Source: Alphaproteobacteria bacterium
GTDB lineage: Bacteria > Pseudomonadota > Alphaproteobacteria > JANQMY01
Direction of reading: 5' to 3'
Length of the DNA: 64,000 nucleotides
NCBI GenBank assembly: GCA_028289425.1
Contig: JANQPL010000003.1
Coordinates: 248,001 to 312,000 of the forward strand
Shown: one piece after another, positions 6,001-56,100 of the stretch
Numbering within the stretch: the stretch's first letter is position 1
How the letters are laid out: each line of letters begins with the position of its first letter
Program-made: the position numbers and the translations under genes
Notes under the pieces: model-generated
Database searches by the model: none
What the model saw: only the letters and a program-made list of their open reading frames with translations
What the model was told of the DNA's origin: nothing

Positions 6001-7356
6001 ATGGCGACGCACACGCTGTTCACAACCGTCAATCTATTCACGGGTGTCGACGACGAAGTCATCCAACCTGGCGCCGTTTGGGTGGAAGACAATCTGATCC
6101 GATTTGCCGGTCCGGAAAGCGACGTGCCCAATCTGCCGGATACAACAACACGTGTGGACTTAGGCGGACAATTCGTCATGCCCGGCATGACCGAATCCCA
6201 CGCGCACATCTCCTACACGAACAATGGCCCGACAGAACTTGACAAAACGCCGGTGGAAGAGGCGATGGTGTCCTCCGTCGATAATGCGCGGCTGATGCTG
6301 GGTTCGGGGTTCACCTCGGCCATTAGCTTCGGATCGGTGCACCGCATTGATGTCTATTTGCGGGACGCTATCAACAAAGGTCAAATTCCCGGTCCCCGTT
6401 TGATTGCGTCCGGACGCGACGTGGGCGCCACTGCAAGCAACGCAGACCTTCATCCCGACTATGCCAGACCACAGATGGAAGGGCTGGGCATGCTGGTGGA
6501 TGGGCCTTGGGCAGTGCGCCGCGCCGTGCGTACCTTGCGCAAGAACCGCGCAAACATCATCAAAATCTTCCTCGATGGCGAAGGACTGTCGGACCACGCG
6601 CCACCCGGCGAACTGACCTACACGGATGATGAAGTGGCCGCCGCCGTCAACGAAGCGCACACGCGCAATATGCGGGTGGCTTGCCACTCCCGCTCGGCCG
6701 CCGCGGTCAAGCAAGCCGTGCGGCATGGCGTCGATGTCATCGGCCACGCCAATTTCCTGGATGATGAAGCCGTCGACATGCTGAAAAAAGCGCGCGACAG
6801 GCTGGCGGTGGGTCCCGCCATCGCCTGGGAAATTAAGTTTGTCGAGAATGCCGAACGCATGGGCTTTTCCATGAAAACGGTGGAAGCCCGAGGCTATCTC
6901 ACGGAAATCGAAGAAACGAAGAAAGCGGTCAAACGCCTGCGGGAAGCCGGCGTCCGTGTGCTGATCGGTGGGGACTATGGCCTCAACATCACGCCGCACG
7001 GCACCTATGCCAAAGACATTGAATATTTCGTGGACCATTTCGGTATGTCGAACACGGAGGCGTTGTTGTGCGCAACACGTGACGGCGGCGCGGTCGCGGA
7101 CCCCAGGGGCATGCTGGGTACGCTTGAAGAAGGCAAGCTGGCCGATCTGGTCATTGTCGACGGCAACCCCGTGGAAGAGGTGCGCGTGCTGCAAGATCAC
7201 AGCCGCATCACCGCGGTGATGAAGGACGGCAAAATCTATCGGGGCCTGACCAATGACAATCCGTACTTGGCGTCGTCCGAGGACTTGGTAACGGCCCGTG
7301 CCCAGTCGCCGAAGCGGCAAGCGTCTGTGGCGCCACTTCTTCAGACCGCTAATTAG
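6001..7356 (+). CDS. Metal-dependent amidohydrolase (imidazolonepropionase-like)
   Basis: A 451-residue cyclic amidohydrolase of the imidazolonepropionase / prolidase-like superfamily. It has a beta-sandwich part around the barrel (TLFTTVNLFTGVDDEVI at the N-terminus), the first metal pair in GMTESHAHIS (about residue 65), later ligands in RVACHSRSAAA and VIGHANFLDDE, and the late Asp in IGGDYG near residue 322. The C-terminal strand LGTLEEGKLADLVIVDGNP is the standard end of this family. AAGGAGGT at 5989-5996 is a near-perfect Shine-Dalgarno for the chosen ATG. Substrates of relatives are N-acyl amino acids, dipeptides and hydantoin-like rings; this one is not assigned. It shares a strand with the enoyl-CoA hydratase 36 bp later. 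Confidence 0.85.
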   Translation: MATHTLFTTVNLFTGVDDEVIQPGAVWVEDNLIRFAGPESDVPNLPDTTTRVDLGGQFVMPGMTESHAHISYTNNGPTELDKTPVEEAMVSSVDNARLMLGSGFTSAISFGSVHRIDVYLRDAINKGQIPGPRLIASGRDVGATASNADLHPDYARPQMEGLGMLVDGPWAVRRAVRTLRKNRANIIKIFLDGEGLSDHAPPGELTYTDDEVAAAVNEAHTRNMRVACHSRSAAAVKQAVRHGVDVIGHANFLDDEAVDMLKKARDRLAVGPAIAWEIKFVENAERMGFSMKTVEARGYLTEIEETKKAVKRLREAGVRVLIGGDYGLNITPHGTYAKDIEYFVDHFGMSNTEALLCATRDGGAVADPRGMLGTLEEGKLADLVIVDGNPVEEVRVLQDHSRITAVMKDGKIYRGLTNDNPYLASSEDLVTARAQSPKRQASVAPLLQTAN

Positions 7357-50212: not shown

Positions 50213-50875
50213 ATGTCACTCCGGTCGAGACTAAATTCAAGAAAGGGCCGCGCCTTGCGCCACTATTTTCAGGACAAGTCGGTCAATCTCAGCAAGCGGG
50301 AACGAACACGCTCGCTCCTCATCGACGGGGCCATTAGCGCCATTGCCGAACATGGGCTTGAGGGGGCATCCATCAAAGAAATCACCACCATTGCCGGCCT
50401 TTCGAACGGCACGTTCTACAATCACTTCGAAGATCGAGAGGAAGTCTTTCGGCTGGCGACGATGTCCATTGCACAAGAGCTCGCCGACGATATTGCTGAG
50501 ATGGTGGCCGATGTGGATGACGGCATTGCGCGCATCGTCATTTCCACGAACACTTTCATCGAACGCGCGGTATCCGCCTCGGATTGGGGCGCCATGATCG
50601 TCGATGCGGTCCACTATTTGGGTGATGTGCGCCAGGATGTGGCAACACATTTGCGTGCCGACATTGCCCTTGCCATGAAACGGGGCGACATTTCGGAAAT
50701 GCCGGATCGATTTCAAATCCACCAGATTGTCGCGCTCATAGCGCTCGCCATCGAGGCGCAGCTTGATGGTGGCAAGAGCAAATCGATCAATTTCCGGACC
50801 TGCGAAGCCGTGCTGCGCCTTCTTGGACTATCACCGACGAAGGCCCAAAGGGCCGTCGCCGCACACCTTACCTAG
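50213..50875 (+). CDS. TetR/AcrR family transcriptional regulator
   Basis: A 220-residue TetR regulator. After a basic N-terminal arm, the HTH domain lies at about 32-80 (LLIDGAISAIAEHGLEGASIKEI, then GLSNGTFYNHFEDREEVF), followed by helices for ligand binding. It diverges from the FAD monooxygenase operon, and the 42-bp palindrome lies between them, so it likely represses that operon and itself until an aromatic ligand appears. Confidence 0.9.
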   Translation: MSLRSRLNSRKGRALRHYFQDKSVNLSKRERTRSLLIDGAISAIAEHGLEGASIKEITTIAGLSNGTFYNHFEDREEVFRLATMSIAQELADDIAEMVADVDDGIARIVISTNTFIERAVSASDWGAMIVDAVHYLGDVRQDVATHLRADIALAMKRGDISEMPDRFQIHQIVALIALAIEAQLDGGKSKSINFRTCEAVLRLLGLSPTKAQRAVAAHLT

Positions 50876-50931
50876 AGCAACGTGCGCTCAAACCGACCCA
50901 CACAGGGTTGGTTTGAGCGCACAAAGTTGCT
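50876..50931. repeat. Long bulged hairpin, palindromic repeat (terminator side of TetR gene)
   Basis: An 18-bp stem (50882-50899 with 50905-50922, one G-U pair, 5-base loop) is extended by AGCAAC / GTTGCT (50876-50881 and 50926-50931) beyond an AAA bulge. It starts at the TetR stop and may act as terminator, though its shape is shared with the next repeat. Confidence 0.65.
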
Positions 50932-50946
50932 GTATTTTGTAGATGT

Positions 50947-51009
50947 AGATCATCTTTATGCGATCAACTGGATCGTCGAAGGTGAGTCCAGTTGATCGCA
51001 TGATGATCT
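50947..51009. repeat. Second bulged hairpin, same design in opposite orientation
   Basis: ATGCGATCAACTGGA (50958-50972) pairs perfectly with 50987-51001, and AGATCATC (50947-50954) pairs with GATGATCT (51002-51009) beyond a TTT bulge. Read on the reverse strand, it has the same stem / AAA bulge / outer-stem layout as the hairpin at 50876-50931. It covers the 3' end of the leftward 111-aa gene. Confidence 0.65.
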
Positions 51010-51343
51010 AGACACCATTGGCTAAAAACCGGAAGGAACCGTCTGGTTCGGCCAAGCAAATACGGTCTCTCGTTCGTCCGTTTAGTTTGACCTTAATTGG
51101 CACCGCAACGCCGCCTAGGCTCGATTTATACCTGGCCTGCCTTCTTTCGTTGAGCGCGACTTCATCCCTTTCCACCCGATAGTGTTCGGCAGCAGCGGAA
51201 AGGCAGGTTGCTGGCGCCAGTGCCATAAGGTCGGCGCGGCTCATGTCATCCGCGTACGCCATTGAGGAAGTTGCCAGCCCCGCAGCCATGGCAAACAGAT
51301 ATGTGGATATCCCACGTTTCGTCCTATTACAGATGATCGGCAT
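51008..51343 (-). CDS. Small exported protein, unrecognised
   Basis: A 111-residue protein with a signal peptide (TKRGISTYLFAMAAGLATSSMAYA, cut near residue 28), leaving a mature 83-residue protein with two Cys (PATCLSAAAEHY; RDRICLAEPDG) that could form one disulfide. It ends SFRFLANGV. AAGGGAGA seven bases upstream supports the ATG at 51343; the reading frame stays open further upstream, but that part looks non-coding. No family recognised. It diverges from the asparagine-synthetase-like / beta-hydroxylase pair, so a substrate or partner relation is possible but unproven. Confidence 0.65.
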   Translation of the reverse strand: MPIICNRTKRGISTYLFAMAAGLATSSMAYADDMSRADLMALAPATCLSAAAEHYRVERDEVALNERRQARYKSSLGGVAVPIKVKLNGRTRDRICLAEPDGSFRFLANGV

Positions 51344-51639
51344 GATTAATCTCCCTTGCCCTCTTGAACACCCTGTGCCGAGCACGAGGCCGTCGCACGG
51401 TTTGGCGGCACGATAGGTAGGTGGGCATGGAGTAGCTCTGATTCGACGTGTGAATTCGCAACGGCGTGTCGCGATTTCACACCGCACAACGGCTTGATTT
51501 TGGCTTGGGATGCGGCGCCAAACGAACGGCGCTCAAACCGATTTTTAACCCTGGTTACGTAAGACTAACTTTGCTGGCGCATTGTCCGGACAATCCGGAA
51601 TGTAGAGAGTACAGTGTCGGTTGCCGGGAAACCCACTCA
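51344..51639. other. Intergenic region between the divergent small secreted protein and ligase genes
   Basis: About 296 bases. The forward frame of the ligase stays open back to a GTG at 51466, so part of this may be coding if translation starts early. I looked for a short precursor-peptide gene on both strands: the only forward ATG (about 51426) runs into a stop after two codons. No tRNA, strong hairpin or T-rich terminator is visible. Confidence 0.4.
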
Positions 51640-53157
51640 GTGTCGATTAAGCCACACCGTAAACAATTCCTGATTGCCCCGCGCCCAATCGAGCTGGGCG
51701 ACGACTGGTCTTGCATGAGTTTCGGTGACAAGTACCTCTGCCACCAAGAGGACCTAAACGTCTCCAAGGCAGTGGATGCGGACGGGCGGCCTTGGATACT
51801 GCTCGGACGTGCCATTGAGGTGGAGGCAGACCGCTCTGGCGCGCGGGAGGCCCTGCAATCTGCGCGCACATCCGATGTGCCGCGCCTGTCGCAAAGCTGG
51901 GCAGGCCGTTGGTTGCTCATTGAGCCCGATCACATTTTTACCGACGCGTGCGGCCTTCTTGGGTGCCTCTACACAACCGACCCTGAGGGAGCGCTGTGGG
52001 TATCAAGCAGTCCAATGCTGTTGGCCGAGCATGCCTTCGATGGAACCCCAAAAATACTTGATGACCGTCGTCTCAAACATGAGCTTGGCATTTCCTGGTT
52101 TCCCCCACCACGCACCAGATATGACGCCATCAGACGATTGCTGCCCAGCCAAACACTGTCGCTCAAGAGCAGCGACGTGGCGCCTCGCCCATTGCTGCCC
52201 GACATCGGCGAAACGAAAAATTACGGTCAAGCATTAGACTGGCTGACCAGTTGTCTCCAAACTGTCATGGCGCGGCTTCGGCAAGAGGTGGCGGGCCCCC
52301 TGTGGCTTGGACTTACCGCCGGTTACGATTCTCGGCTGATGCTTGCGATTGCGGCAAAATCCGGCATCGATATCCAGCCCTATACGCGGCTCACACCTCG
52401 CATGCTGGTTGCGGACCGCATGTTGCCGCCGGAGCTTTGCAAACTGGCGGGATATCGTCACCACACCATGATCGACCAGCGCACGGCCGTCGATCGCCTC
52501 GATCAACTGAAGCGGCACGCAGGCGACAATGTGGCTTTGCACGACGCCACCCCTTTTCTCTCGGGCGTGCGGTCGGCGATGAGCGGGCTGACATTCGGCG
52601 GACACGGGTTTGCTCTTGCCGGTGGCTTCGGCAACTGGCGGCAGTTGCCGTCTCAATTGCCCGGCCCTGGCGACGCAACGCGGTTGTTCCTTCAGCAATG
52701 CCAAGAACCGTTGGACTCCCCAGCCGCTTTCGGCCTTCGACAATGGTTTGAGTGGATCGAAGAACATCCTCAGCCTCACCTGGACTGGCGCGACCGCCTG
52801 TTTCTCGAGCAACGTCAGACCGGCTGGCTTGCGGCAAAAGAACAAATCTATGACATGGAAACGCTGGAGCGGTTTCCAATTCTCAATTGCGCCCAGATCT
52901 ATGCTTGTTTGTTGGCGATCGACACGGATAAGCGCGTGGGATCTCTCATACAGGAAGACATGATAAGGCTTTTGTCGCCAGATTTGGCCGCGCTGCCGTT
53001 CAACCCACCCGACAGAAGTTATCTCACACGAGCCCCGCATCGCGTGTTTCAGCGCCGCTGGTTCTTTCTTTCGCGACGCGCGGCACGCCGGCTGGAGCAG
53101 ACTCCGGCCACACATCGCGCTCAATTGCAGCAGACCAAGGATATGAAAGATGCTTGA
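51640..53157 (+). CDS. Asparagine-synthetase-like ATP-dependent ligase/cyclase
   Basis: About 505 residues from the GTG at 51640. The C-terminal half is an asparagine-synthetase-type ATP pyrophosphatase domain with the P-P-loop GLTAGYDSRL (about 224-233) and later blocks GHGFALAGGFGNW and YDMETLERFPILN. The N-terminal half looks like a degenerate class II glutamine amidotransferase (WAGRWLLIEPDHIFTDACGLLGCLYTTD; WVSSSPMLLAE), without the N-terminal catalytic Cys, so it would not use glutamine in the usual way. That layout is shared by beta-lactam synthetase and lasso-peptide cyclases, which adenylate a carboxylate for intramolecular amide formation. The true start is uncertain (GTG at 51466 adds 58 residues). 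It overlaps the next gene by 8 bp. Confidence 0.78.
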   Translation: MSIKPHRKQFLIAPRPIELGDDWSCMSFGDKYLCHQEDLNVSKAVDADGRPWILLGRAIEVEADRSGAREALQSARTSDVPRLSQSWAGRWLLIEPDHIFTDACGLLGCLYTTDPEGALWVSSSPMLLAEHAFDGTPKILDDRRLKHELGISWFPPPRTRYDAIRRLLPSQTLSLKSSDVAPRPLLPDIGETKNYGQALDWLTSCLQTVMARLRQEVAGPLWLGLTAGYDSRLMLAIAAKSGIDIQPYTRLTPRMLVADRMLPPELCKLAGYRHHTMIDQRTAVDRLDQLKRHAGDNVALHDATPFLSGVRSAMSGLTFGGHGFALAGGFGNWRQLPSQLPGPGDATRLFLQQCQEPLDSPAAFGLRQWFEWIEEHPQPHLDWRDRLFLEQRQTGWLAAKEQIYDMETLERFPILNCAQIYACLLAIDTDKRVGSLIQEDMIRLLSPDLAALPFNPPDRSYLTRAPHRVFQRRWFFLSRRAARRLEQTPATHRAQLQQTKDMKDA

Positions 53158-54001
53158 AAAGATCCGCAGCTTGTCCCGACACTTTTCACGACTGATGAAG
53201 GCGGCCCCGGTTCTTAGGCGCCATCGCCGGGACCTCGATCTCAAGCGGGTCATGAGATCCTATTCAGGCGCCGTACCTTTGTGTTTGTTTTCGGAACCGT
53301 TTCTTTGGGTACGTATGCTGATTAATTCGAAGAATAGGTATAGGCGGCCGGACCAACGGCCCCACGCGTTTTACATGCCGGAGTTGCCGGCACGCCCCTT
53401 CGGCGAACCGGATGCAACGTCTCATCTGCTGGCGTCCCATGCAGAAGAAATCGTGCGTGAATTCACGGCGATTGTCCCCGAAGAAGTGACGTCGCCGTCA
53501 ATCGGACTCACCTCGGGTGGCAATTGGAACACTTTTCCGCTGGTCAGAGCGGCAAAGCGCTTTGATGACAATATCCGCACCTGCCCCAAAACTTGGTCCG
53601 TGGTCGAACAATGTCCGTTGCCCAAAGACGTGCGCGGTGGCGTGTATTTCTCCGTCCTCGATCCTGGCACGAAAATCGAACCTCATTGCGGTCCGTCGAA
53701 CCTGAAATACCGCTACCATGTAACGGTGAAAGCATCCGAAGGCGCGCGCATCAGATCGGGGCCGGAGTGGCGCACCTGGGAAGCCGGCCAATGCCTCATT
53801 CTGGACGACTCTTTCGATCATGAGGTGGAACACAATGGGGCTGAGCGCCGGGTTGTCCTCATTGTCGATTGCTGGCACCCAGACCTCACCGACCGCGAGC
53901 GCGCCTTCCTTACCGAACTGCACCAATGCTGGAATAACGAACATTCAGAAACGCCGAATTCGGCGGACAACTTCCAACTTGCAGAAAACGTCATGTCGTA
54001 A
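53150..54001 (+). CDS. Aspartyl/asparaginyl beta-hydroxylase family protein
   Basis: A 283-residue Fe(II)/2-oxoglutarate dioxygenase of the ASPH type, which hydroxylates the beta-carbon of Asp or Asn in peptides or free substrates. Iron ligands are His179 in EPHCGPSNLKYRYH and His224 in DDSFDHEVEHNG; the Arg pair in GAERRVVLIVDCWHP would hold 2-oxoglutarate. The N-terminal 60 residues are basic (LSRHFSRLMKAAPVLRRHRRD), with a hydrophobic patch near CLFSEPFLWVRMLI that could attach it to the membrane. Its ATG lies inside the end of the ligase gene, so the two products are made together and may act on one substrate. Confidence 0.88.
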   Translation: MLEKIRSLSRHFSRLMKAAPVLRRHRRDLDLKRVMRSYSGAVPLCLFSEPFLWVRMLINSKNRYRRPDQRPHAFYMPELPARPFGEPDATSHLLASHAEEIVREFTAIVPEEVTSPSIGLTSGGNWNTFPLVRAAKRFDDNIRTCPKTWSVVEQCPLPKDVRGGVYFSVLDPGTKIEPHCGPSNLKYRYHVTVKASEGARIRSGPEWRTWEAGQCLILDDSFDHEVEHNGAERRVVLIVDCWHPDLTDRERAFLTELHQCWNNEHSETPNSADNFQLAENVMS

Positions 54002-54151
54002 AGAAACGGCAAACAGTCGGTCAATGAAGCGCGATCTGCCCATGGCAGGCGCTTGACAGGCTATTGGCAGGGGCCGGTCTTATCAGTTTCTTATTCACAT
54101 CCCACTACTCTAGCGGTGAGTTTCCTGGATTTGCCACCGCGAGTAGGAATG

Positions 54152-55759
54152 ATGACCGCAGAAACGCCCAGTATCCCCAAATCAAAAAAGCAGGCTGCCG
54201 AGACCCTGCTCCAGGAGCGTTTGGCGAACGTCAATCATGCAATCTTGGTTGTCGACGAAACAGGCATTTCGATCGGGGCAAATGACGCCTTCTTCGAGAC
54301 CACCCACCTTCCGCCCAATCACGTTCTTGGTCGCCCCATGGGCGACTTCGTTACCAACGGCGAAAATTCCGACAGCGAGGAACTTGGCGCTGCGGCCGAC
54401 GGCATTATCCGGATCATAGGGGAAAATGAAGCGGCGGCAGAATTTGCCTTGCGCCGAATCCCTTTCGAAGTTCACGATGGTGTGGTTTGGCATGTGTGCG
54501 AGTTCAAACCGACCGTCGCCCTCGCCGATGACTTCGAGGCCGAAGACCGGGTTCAGGCCCTTAAGCTGATAAACATTGCCACATCGGCGCCAGGCCCCAC
54601 CCAATGTTCCACCTTCCGCTTCGTTTCGCGCGACAATCTGCAAAAACGGCTTGAGAGCAAATGGGACGACTTTTCCCAGTTACTCGACAATTTGGCGAAT
54701 GACGTGCTCAGCGACGGCATTGAAGCCGGCGACATTCTGACCAAGACAGACAACAACGATTTTGTGGTCGCCTTCGAAGATCAGTCTCCGGAAGAAATCC
54801 GCGAAAAGACGCAAGACCTTTCCACACGAATTCATACGGCGGTCTTGAGCGAGGCATTCGAGACCAAATGTGCCGCCCTGGACCTTGGCGACGGCGTGCT
54901 GGAGACGGCGGCCAAGGTCAAGACAGCAACATTTGACGTAAATCTGTCGCGTGGATTTGGCGTGGCCAAATCACTTTCTGCCTTTTTTGGCGAGCAGATC
55001 GCAAACGCGCAGAAGAAGATCATCGAAACCTTTCGCTCCAACGTTTCAACAATTGTTCAGTCTACTGATTGGAAAGCGTCTACTTTCGTCACGCCGGACG
55101 GGTCGGCGACCGACATTCAGGGGTTTGCCTATTGCGGTAACGCCATTGATCTTTCGGCGCTGGACATTGTGGAAGTCGACGAGCTTGCGGCAATCCATTT
55201 TGACCTCGACTTGGCCCATCTATCCAAGACGCCCGACATTATTGAATTCATGCGCGACACGCGGGCACCACTGATGGTGGATGTCCATTTTTCGACTTTG
55301 AGAAGCCCGAAATTTAGACAGGCCTATATTGGCCAATGTGAAGTGGTGCGCGAGAAGATCGGCAAAAATCTAGCCTTTAACATGCAAGAAATACCCGACG
55401 GGACGGACCCCCAGGACATTTTGGGCGCTGTGGCAACGCTGAAACCGTTTAGCAAATATTGCTCGGTCGAAGGCGAACCAATGGCGGCGACGCCGTTTGG
55501 GGGACACATTTCATTGATCACTTGGTCGTACGGATCCCTCATGGCGCACCTGGCGCGCGGAGGCCAATTGGCGAACCGGATCGAACGGGTTCATCAGCAC
55601 GAGGCGAGGATTGTCGTTAAGGACGTACCAAATACCGAAGCAGCAAAGCGTCTCCGACGTTTCAATATCGACCTTGTACGATTTGATAGCCGAAGTGCGG
55701 ATGCTGGATCTTTGTCATTCGACAAAAAGGATCGCATGTCCTTCCGTCAGTCTGGGTGA
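54152..55759 (+). CDS. PAS / degenerate EAL-like signalling protein (hypothetical)
   Basis: About 535 residues. Residues 20-135 look like a PAS sensor (HAILVVDETGISIGANDAFFETTHLPPNHVLGRPMGDFV, then VWHVCEFKPTVAL). A charged middle region with helices follows. From about 330 a part resembles an EAL fold in strand order (DELAAIHFDLDLAHLSKTPDIIEF, then PLMVDVHFSTLRSPKFRQAYI, IGKNLAFNMQEIPDGTDPQDI, KYCSVEGEPMAATPF), but I see no E-A/V-L signature or metal ligands, so no phosphodiesterase activity is expected. It might bind a nucleotide or only a protein. ATG 54149 or 54152 follows GTAGGA closely. It is separate from the upstream pair by 150 bp. Confidence 0.6.
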   Translation: MTAETPSIPKSKKQAAETLLQERLANVNHAILVVDETGISIGANDAFFETTHLPPNHVLGRPMGDFVTNGENSDSEELGAAADGIIRIIGENEAAAEFALRRIPFEVHDGVVWHVCEFKPTVALADDFEAEDRVQALKLINIATSAPGPTQCSTFRFVSRDNLQKRLESKWDDFSQLLDNLANDVLSDGIEAGDILTKTDNNDFVVAFEDQSPEEIREKTQDLSTRIHTAVLSEAFETKCAALDLGDGVLETAAKVKTATFDVNLSRGFGVAKSLSAFFGEQIANAQKKIIETFRSNVSTIVQSTDWKASTFVTPDGSATDIQGFAYCGNAIDLSALDIVEVDELAAIHFDLDLAHLSKTPDIIEFMRDTRAPLMVDVHFSTLRSPKFRQAYIGQCEVVREKIGKNLAFNMQEIPDGTDPQDILGAVATLKPFSKYCSVEGEPMAATPFGGHISLITWSYGSLMAHLARGGQLANRIERVHQHEARIVVKDVPNTEAAKRLRRFNIDLVRFDSRSADAGSLSFDKKDRMSFRQSG

Positions 55760-56025
55760 GCCGCTTGCTGGGGCCCCGATGAAAATCAGCGGCTGCGATT
55801 GCACGTCCGCTTGATCGCCCCAATTTCCGAATGCGTTGCCAGACAAGCGTGACAAGGATCCGCCTGCGCTAAAGCTTCGGCGGACGGGCGAGATCTCACA
55901 CTAGATATTACATTCGCCTTGCCGCCCGAAGCCGGAGGCGGGAGCCCCTCGCGGGCGCTGGGGCATTCTCACCTAAAATCGATCCACTGGATCGATTTTC
56001 CGGTGCGCCGCACCGTCGGCTCGAA
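55760..56025. other. Intergenic region before tRNA-Val
   Basis: About 265 bases between the PAS/EAL-like gene and the tRNA. Besides the 25-base palindrome at 55975-55999 and the hairpin at 56001-56015, it holds GC-rich sequence with small inverted repeats (GCGGGAGCCCCTCGCGGGC area) and no open reading frame with family features. Confidence 0.5.
55975..55999. terminator. 25-base palindrome ending in A/T runs, downstream of tRNA-Val
   Basis: AAAATCGATCCA, one central base, TGGATCGATTTT: a perfect 12-bp inverted repeat. On the reverse strand it lies 27 bp past the tRNA and ends in T, so it could stop the tRNA transcript. A second hairpin, CGGTGC-GCC-GCACCG (56001-56015), stands between. The GATCCACTGGATC core is also typical of dispersed palindromes in this class. 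Confidence 0.55.

Positions 56026-56100
<75 letters not shown>

Follow-up and report, generated by a model that had tools for sequence, protein, structure and literature searches.

An AsnB-like ligase gene with an altered second motif overlaps an ASPH-type hydroxylase gene in an alphaproteobacterial genome

Within the 64,000-nucleotide stretch of alphaproteobacterial DNA analysed here (the window), two genes on the forward strand, predicted to encode an AsnB-like ligase and an ASPH-type Fe/2-oxoglutarate (2OG) dioxygenase, overlap by 8 bp. What is novel is the rarity of this pairing and the altered motif of the ligase subfamily; no system is demonstrated thereby. We tentatively read the pair, with a probability of roughly one in three, as a two-gene tailoring unit in which an amide ligase of glycan-cluster ancestry and an ASPH-type beta-hydroxylase would act on one surface conjugate. 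The features on which the argument draws are the following.

51008–51343, reverse strand: small exported protein of 111 aa with a signal-peptide-like start; no conserved link to the pair.
51640–53157, forward strand: AsnB-like ligase, 505 aa from GTG 51640 (the probable start), with a degenerate glutaminase-like N-terminal half and no Cys2.
52309–52335, forward strand: GLTAGYDSR (residues 224–232), the variant PP-loop of the synthetase domain.
52597–52614, forward strand: GGHGFA (residues 320–325), at the position of the second AsnB motif, where the alignment places Ala instead of the conserved acid of the family.
53150–53157, forward strand: 8-bp overlap of the ligase end and the hydroxylase start, ATGCTTGA.
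53150–54001, forward strand: ASPH-type Fe/2OG dioxygenase of 283 aa, with H179 and H224 (iron) and R188, H190 and R234 (2OG side).
54053–55759, forward strand: PAS-domain protein with a likely start near 54149; missing from the sister species.
56026–56100, reverse strand: tRNA-Val(GAC), its 3' end towards the variable block, of which it forms the boundary.

The longest ORF of the ligase starts at 51466 and would yield 563 aa, with the N-terminus MSRFHTAQ. Homology to the relatives starts only at GTG 51640, and they do not share the longer N-terminus, so that this GTG is probably the true start. An MCG start, which would place the catalytic Cys at the N-terminus, is absent from both the 505-aa frame and the longest ORF; the working Cys that the earlier note had asked to be sought in a longer frame is therefore missing, and its description of a degenerate glutaminase half in an AsnB-derived ligase is borne out. 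Searches of Pfam with the single sequence and of the PDB by sequence returned zero matches, and since no Pfam family was matched by the protein on its own, the fold call rests on profile-profile comparison. The profile of the ligase and its relatives aligned by hhalign to that of canonical AsnB with a probability of 98.3% (E 1.5e-14) over 198 columns, which include the PP-loop and extend beyond it, and the profile of the window subfamily alone reached 97.8%; the identity of the window ligase to canonical AsnB is about 21–22% over the aligned part. These comparisons make the protein a remote homologue of AsnB within the AsnB-type synthetase superfamily. That it belongs to a real protein family, and is not a chance ORF, follows from its two close relatives, which are 53% identical to it over the full length. 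An AlphaFold model built from three sequences (pLDDT 36) was too poor for use.

The GLTAGYDSR loop, previously taken as intact, is indeed encoded at 52309–52335, but it is a variant in which TAG replaces SGG (LTAGYDSR). The PP-loop Asp is retained across the LTAGxDSR family, except in L037, which has Asn, and none of the 12 aligned members shows an MCG start. At the second acidic motif, which is GEGSDE or GxGGE in AsnB-type synthetases, the window ligase reads GGHGFALA and its two close relatives (L074 and L075) read GGHGFAIA, GGHGFA being invariant across the three and devoid of the acid. The other nine members aligned all have the acid, which is D in L094 and E in the rest, in an alignment that is moderate at the second motif and less certain there than at the PP-loop. 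The substitution by Ala of an otherwise conserved acid renders the ligase activity of the window subfamily uncertain. Comparison of the L074 and L075 ligases yielded a dN of 0.030 and a dS of 0.170, that is, a dN/dS of 0.18, which points to purifying selection, so that the motif-changed subfamily is presumably functional. Shared superfamily membership is what speaks for an ordinary asparagine synthetase, a reading we consider highly improbable given the absent N-terminal Cys, the altered loop and the missing acid, and given that the host genome carries C19 and C20, two further AsnB-family genes whose length is ordinary.

Close relatives of the ligase were recovered at only two loci, both from metagenome-assembled genomes, when about 85,000 species genomes were scanned with two short peptide patterns, an approach that can miss members. 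In both L074 and L075 (the same locus as L072, in genome G528), the ligase gene directly follows that of a Wzx-type flippase and precedes that of an M48-like peptidase, named by reading its sequence; in L072, a GT2 and a Poly_export gene also lie upstream. The 3.4-kb L074 contig (JANQQD010000023.1) is labelled Anaerolineae and is probably misbinned, since an alphaproteobacterial MAG has a near-identical flippase-ligase-peptidase segment. The wider LTAGxDSR family is likewise rare, with matches in 4 of 398 genomes (family profile, E 1e-20). One member, annotated as asparagine synthase-related, lies at 6095–8440 of L091, a capsule locus with a UDP-ManNAc dehydrogenase on the E. coli plasmid pCE1537-B. 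Outside the window, and with L075 and L072 taken as one, exopolysaccharide or capsule loci account for 8 of the 12 family loci (L037, L038, L039, L075/L072, L074, L090, L091 and L099); a single glycosyltransferase adjoins the family member in L094, and a glycan character is not clear for L092, L073 and L093. The best reading of these gene neighbourhoods is that the ligase descends from an AsnB-like family of exopolysaccharide and capsule loci that lost the glutaminase nucleophile. No glycan cluster lies beside the pair within the window; in favour of a surface-conjugate role, the host genome does carry one Poly_export gene elsewhere.

The product of the overlapping gene matched Pfam PF05118 at 2.7e-40 and human ASPH structures at about 1e-29 (alignment to 5apa). 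Its identity to the sampled relatives is mostly about 35% or less. The roles of the iron and 2OG positions in ASPH are well established; in the alignment to ASPH, H179 and H224 fall in the former and R188, H190 and R234 in the latter, consistent with the ASPH-type enzyme with both iron-binding His proposed before. The PF05118 domain and these residues are common to ASPH, OlsC and LpxO; unlike ASPH, the window dioxygenase has no TPR part and its gene overlaps that of a ligase. The best NCBIfam match was OlsC (3.6e-20, 72 of 450 bits), followed by LpxO (35 of 500 bits), both below the cut-off. That these two families top the list, OlsC falling far below its cut-off, would accord with lipid tailoring, in which an OlsC/LpxO-like dioxygenase hydroxylates an aminolipid or lipid A on its acyl chain, with the ligase building or amidating an aminoacyl lipid head. 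We regard this second-ranking rival as unlikely: the dioxygenase scores better against human ASPH than against OlsC, in searches that differ in kind, the ligase relatives reside in glycan and not in lipid loci, and no acyltransferase adjoins the pair.

Both the ORF coordinates and the exact 8-bp overlap (53150–53157) agree with those first reported for the pair, and this arrangement on the same strand suggests translational coupling of ligase and hydroxylase. The pairing does not recur. A ligase of this family was found in none of nine loci, mostly around the nearest relatives of the hydroxylase, examined over about 5–10 kb on each side, contig permitting. No hydroxylase gene adjoins the close ligase relatives, and the best match to the window hydroxylase across the whole G528 genome, at 24% identity, lies on a different contig. 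Thus, among the genomes searched, no relative of either gene is paired with the other; the co-occurrence that the earlier note had proposed to look for came out negative for these two subfamilies, nor does the facing secreted gene form a conserved trio with them.

The surroundings of the pair vary between species. In the one sister genome compared (G001), the same backbone is found on both sides, and a block of about 5 kb from TetR to tRNA-Val(GAC) (window 50826–56023) is missing from the corresponding locus (L040, contig C394), the interval from TetR to tRNA-Val holding no ligase, hydroxylase or PAS gene. The PAS protein, which has a long C-terminal part without Pfam match, has no match elsewhere in that genome either. 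The 111-aa protein facing the pair does have the exported, two-Cys character ascribed to it, with a signal-peptide-like start and three Cys, of which one lies in the leader and two in the part predicted to be mature. Apart from a stub in the sister species, it has no relative among 96 related genomes, and no further one among the 289 class genomes searched. This stub, between TetR and tRNA-Val on the same G001 contig, is an in-frame C-terminal remnant of about 33 residues (55% identity, E 4e-10 within that contig), which points to an ancestor with the intact small gene and to a deletion with one end inside that gene. The pair may either have been lost from the sister species by that deletion or have arrived later in the window lineage. 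A foreign origin of the block was considered and gained no support from GC content, which equals that of the host, so that the block is not obviously a recent arrival. Neither an integrase nor att repeats were seen at tRNA-Val; comparisons with viral contigs, phages, PHROGs and PADLOC were uninformative, no regulatory RNA was found, and no sigma-70-like promoter rose above chance.

These observations bear on the weightiest of the rivals, which we nonetheless hold to be improbable, namely that the two genes are chance or evolving neighbours, with a dead or repurposed ligase and an overlap produced only by local rearrangement in a variable spot next to tRNA-Val. The uniqueness of the pair among the genomes searched, the absence of the block from the sister species and the acid-less second motif would all fit such a history, whereas the same-strand overlap with its suggested coupling, the purifying selection on the ligase subfamily elsewhere and the host-like GC argue against it.

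ASPH-type and AsnB-type genes do meet in other clusters. Among 80 genomes of the family of G174, at least two ASPH matches sit about 3 kb from an Asn_synthase gene, in the sphingomonad loci L087 (G756) and L088 (G784). Each encodes a short, divergent ASPH (PF05118 at 1e-8 to 1e-11), an AsnB-like protein bearing a GATase_7 domain, a putative sulfotransferase (named by reading) and a PqqD-like protein, which Pfam identifies as PqqD in L087; an ASPH, sulfotransferase, PqqD and AsnB-like gene set is also listed for Pontixanthobacter (PMC10040529). The two clusters look like an uncharacterised RiPP-type pathway. They are a distant parallel to the window, with both enzyme types in one cluster, in other subfamilies and with partners absent from the window: their ASPH is not of the window type, their ligase is SGGLDS-type with GATase_7, and neither PqqD nor sulfotransferase accompanies the window pair.

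Beta-lactam synthetase, carbapenam synthetase and the lasso cyclase McjC combine the AsnB fold with a dead glutaminase half, as the window ligase probably does; it differs from them in its PP-loop, its missing acid and its lack of pathway partner genes; PDB sequence searches detected no match between them and the ligase. The kinship with beta-lactam synthetase and lasso cyclases suggested earlier holds only at the superfamily level; the relatives point to exopolysaccharide loci. In lasso biosynthesis, PqqD/RRE (B1), a B2 protease and a precursor lie beside the cyclase, and none of them lies beside the window ligase. A RiPP-type role, in which the ligase would cyclise or amidate a peptide and the ASPH-type enzyme would hydroxylate its Asp, ranks third among the rivals and appears quite unlikely. 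The sphingomonad gene sets lend it some plausibility, as do a weak NCBIfam alignment of the ligase to macrolactam cyclases (8e-5, far from the cut-off) and the precedent of CanE, which acts on the lasso peptide canucin by beta-hydroxylating its C-terminal Asp (PMC8498205). Against it, the block, gaps included, contains no PqqD/RRE, B2 protease, transporter or convincing precursor ORF, both window proteins belong to subfamilies other than those of L087 and L088, and the small protein encoded opposite, itself exported, persists as a stub in a sister species that lacks the pair.

Among known systems in glycan loci, WbpS and WbqG (eps_aminotran_1, TIGR03108) are likewise AsnB-derived and convert uronic acids of glycans to uronamides (PMC7468200). 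They hydrolyse glutamine, whereas the window ligase has no Cys2, and they are located in glycan loci, as are the relatives of the window ligase but not the window ligase itself. The b-Cool locus, with its gene for a putative asparagine synthase, also makes uronamide sugars (PMC12407052), and exopolysaccharides are known in which amino acids are joined to uronic acids by amide bonds (PMC4663550).

For the tailoring unit that we favour, the ligase would use ATP to activate a carboxylate for coupling to some amine, e.g. an amino acid or an amino sugar, in place of glutamine-derived ammonia. With the glutaminase lost, a non-glutamine amine is the simplest nucleophile, and beta-lactam synthetase and lasso cyclases use such amines. 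The acceptor would be a surface-glycan or glycolipid precursor, and the ASPH-type dioxygenase, translated in overlap, would place a hydroxyl on the same conjugate, in its amino-acid or acyl part, before or after amide formation. The substrates of the ASPH family are Asp/Asn in proteins or the acyl chains of lipids, and we know of no member that acts on glycan-linked amino acids. We infer the shared substrate, its chemistry and a ligase activity that persists despite the altered second motif. What endures of the modification system put forward in the earlier note is a ligase without usable glutaminase beside a plausible Fe/2OG beta-hydroxylase, in a pair that is not conserved. It is conceivable, if doubtful, that the two enzymes perform a previously undescribed modification in which amide formation by the glutaminase-less ligase with its rebuilt second motif is combined with beta-hydroxylation of the attached residue by the ASPH-type enzyme; the product would be a glycan, lipid or small molecule bearing a hydroxylated amino-acid amide.

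To our knowledge, the enzymes that amide-link amino acids to surface sugars are poorly assigned, and the glutaminase-less AsnB-like family of exopolysaccharide and capsule loci provides a candidate set for this linkage. The overlapping hydroxylase would make the chemistry of the window ligase traceable by mass shift, and the acid-less subfamily offers a test of how far AsnB-type catalysis can be rebuilt.
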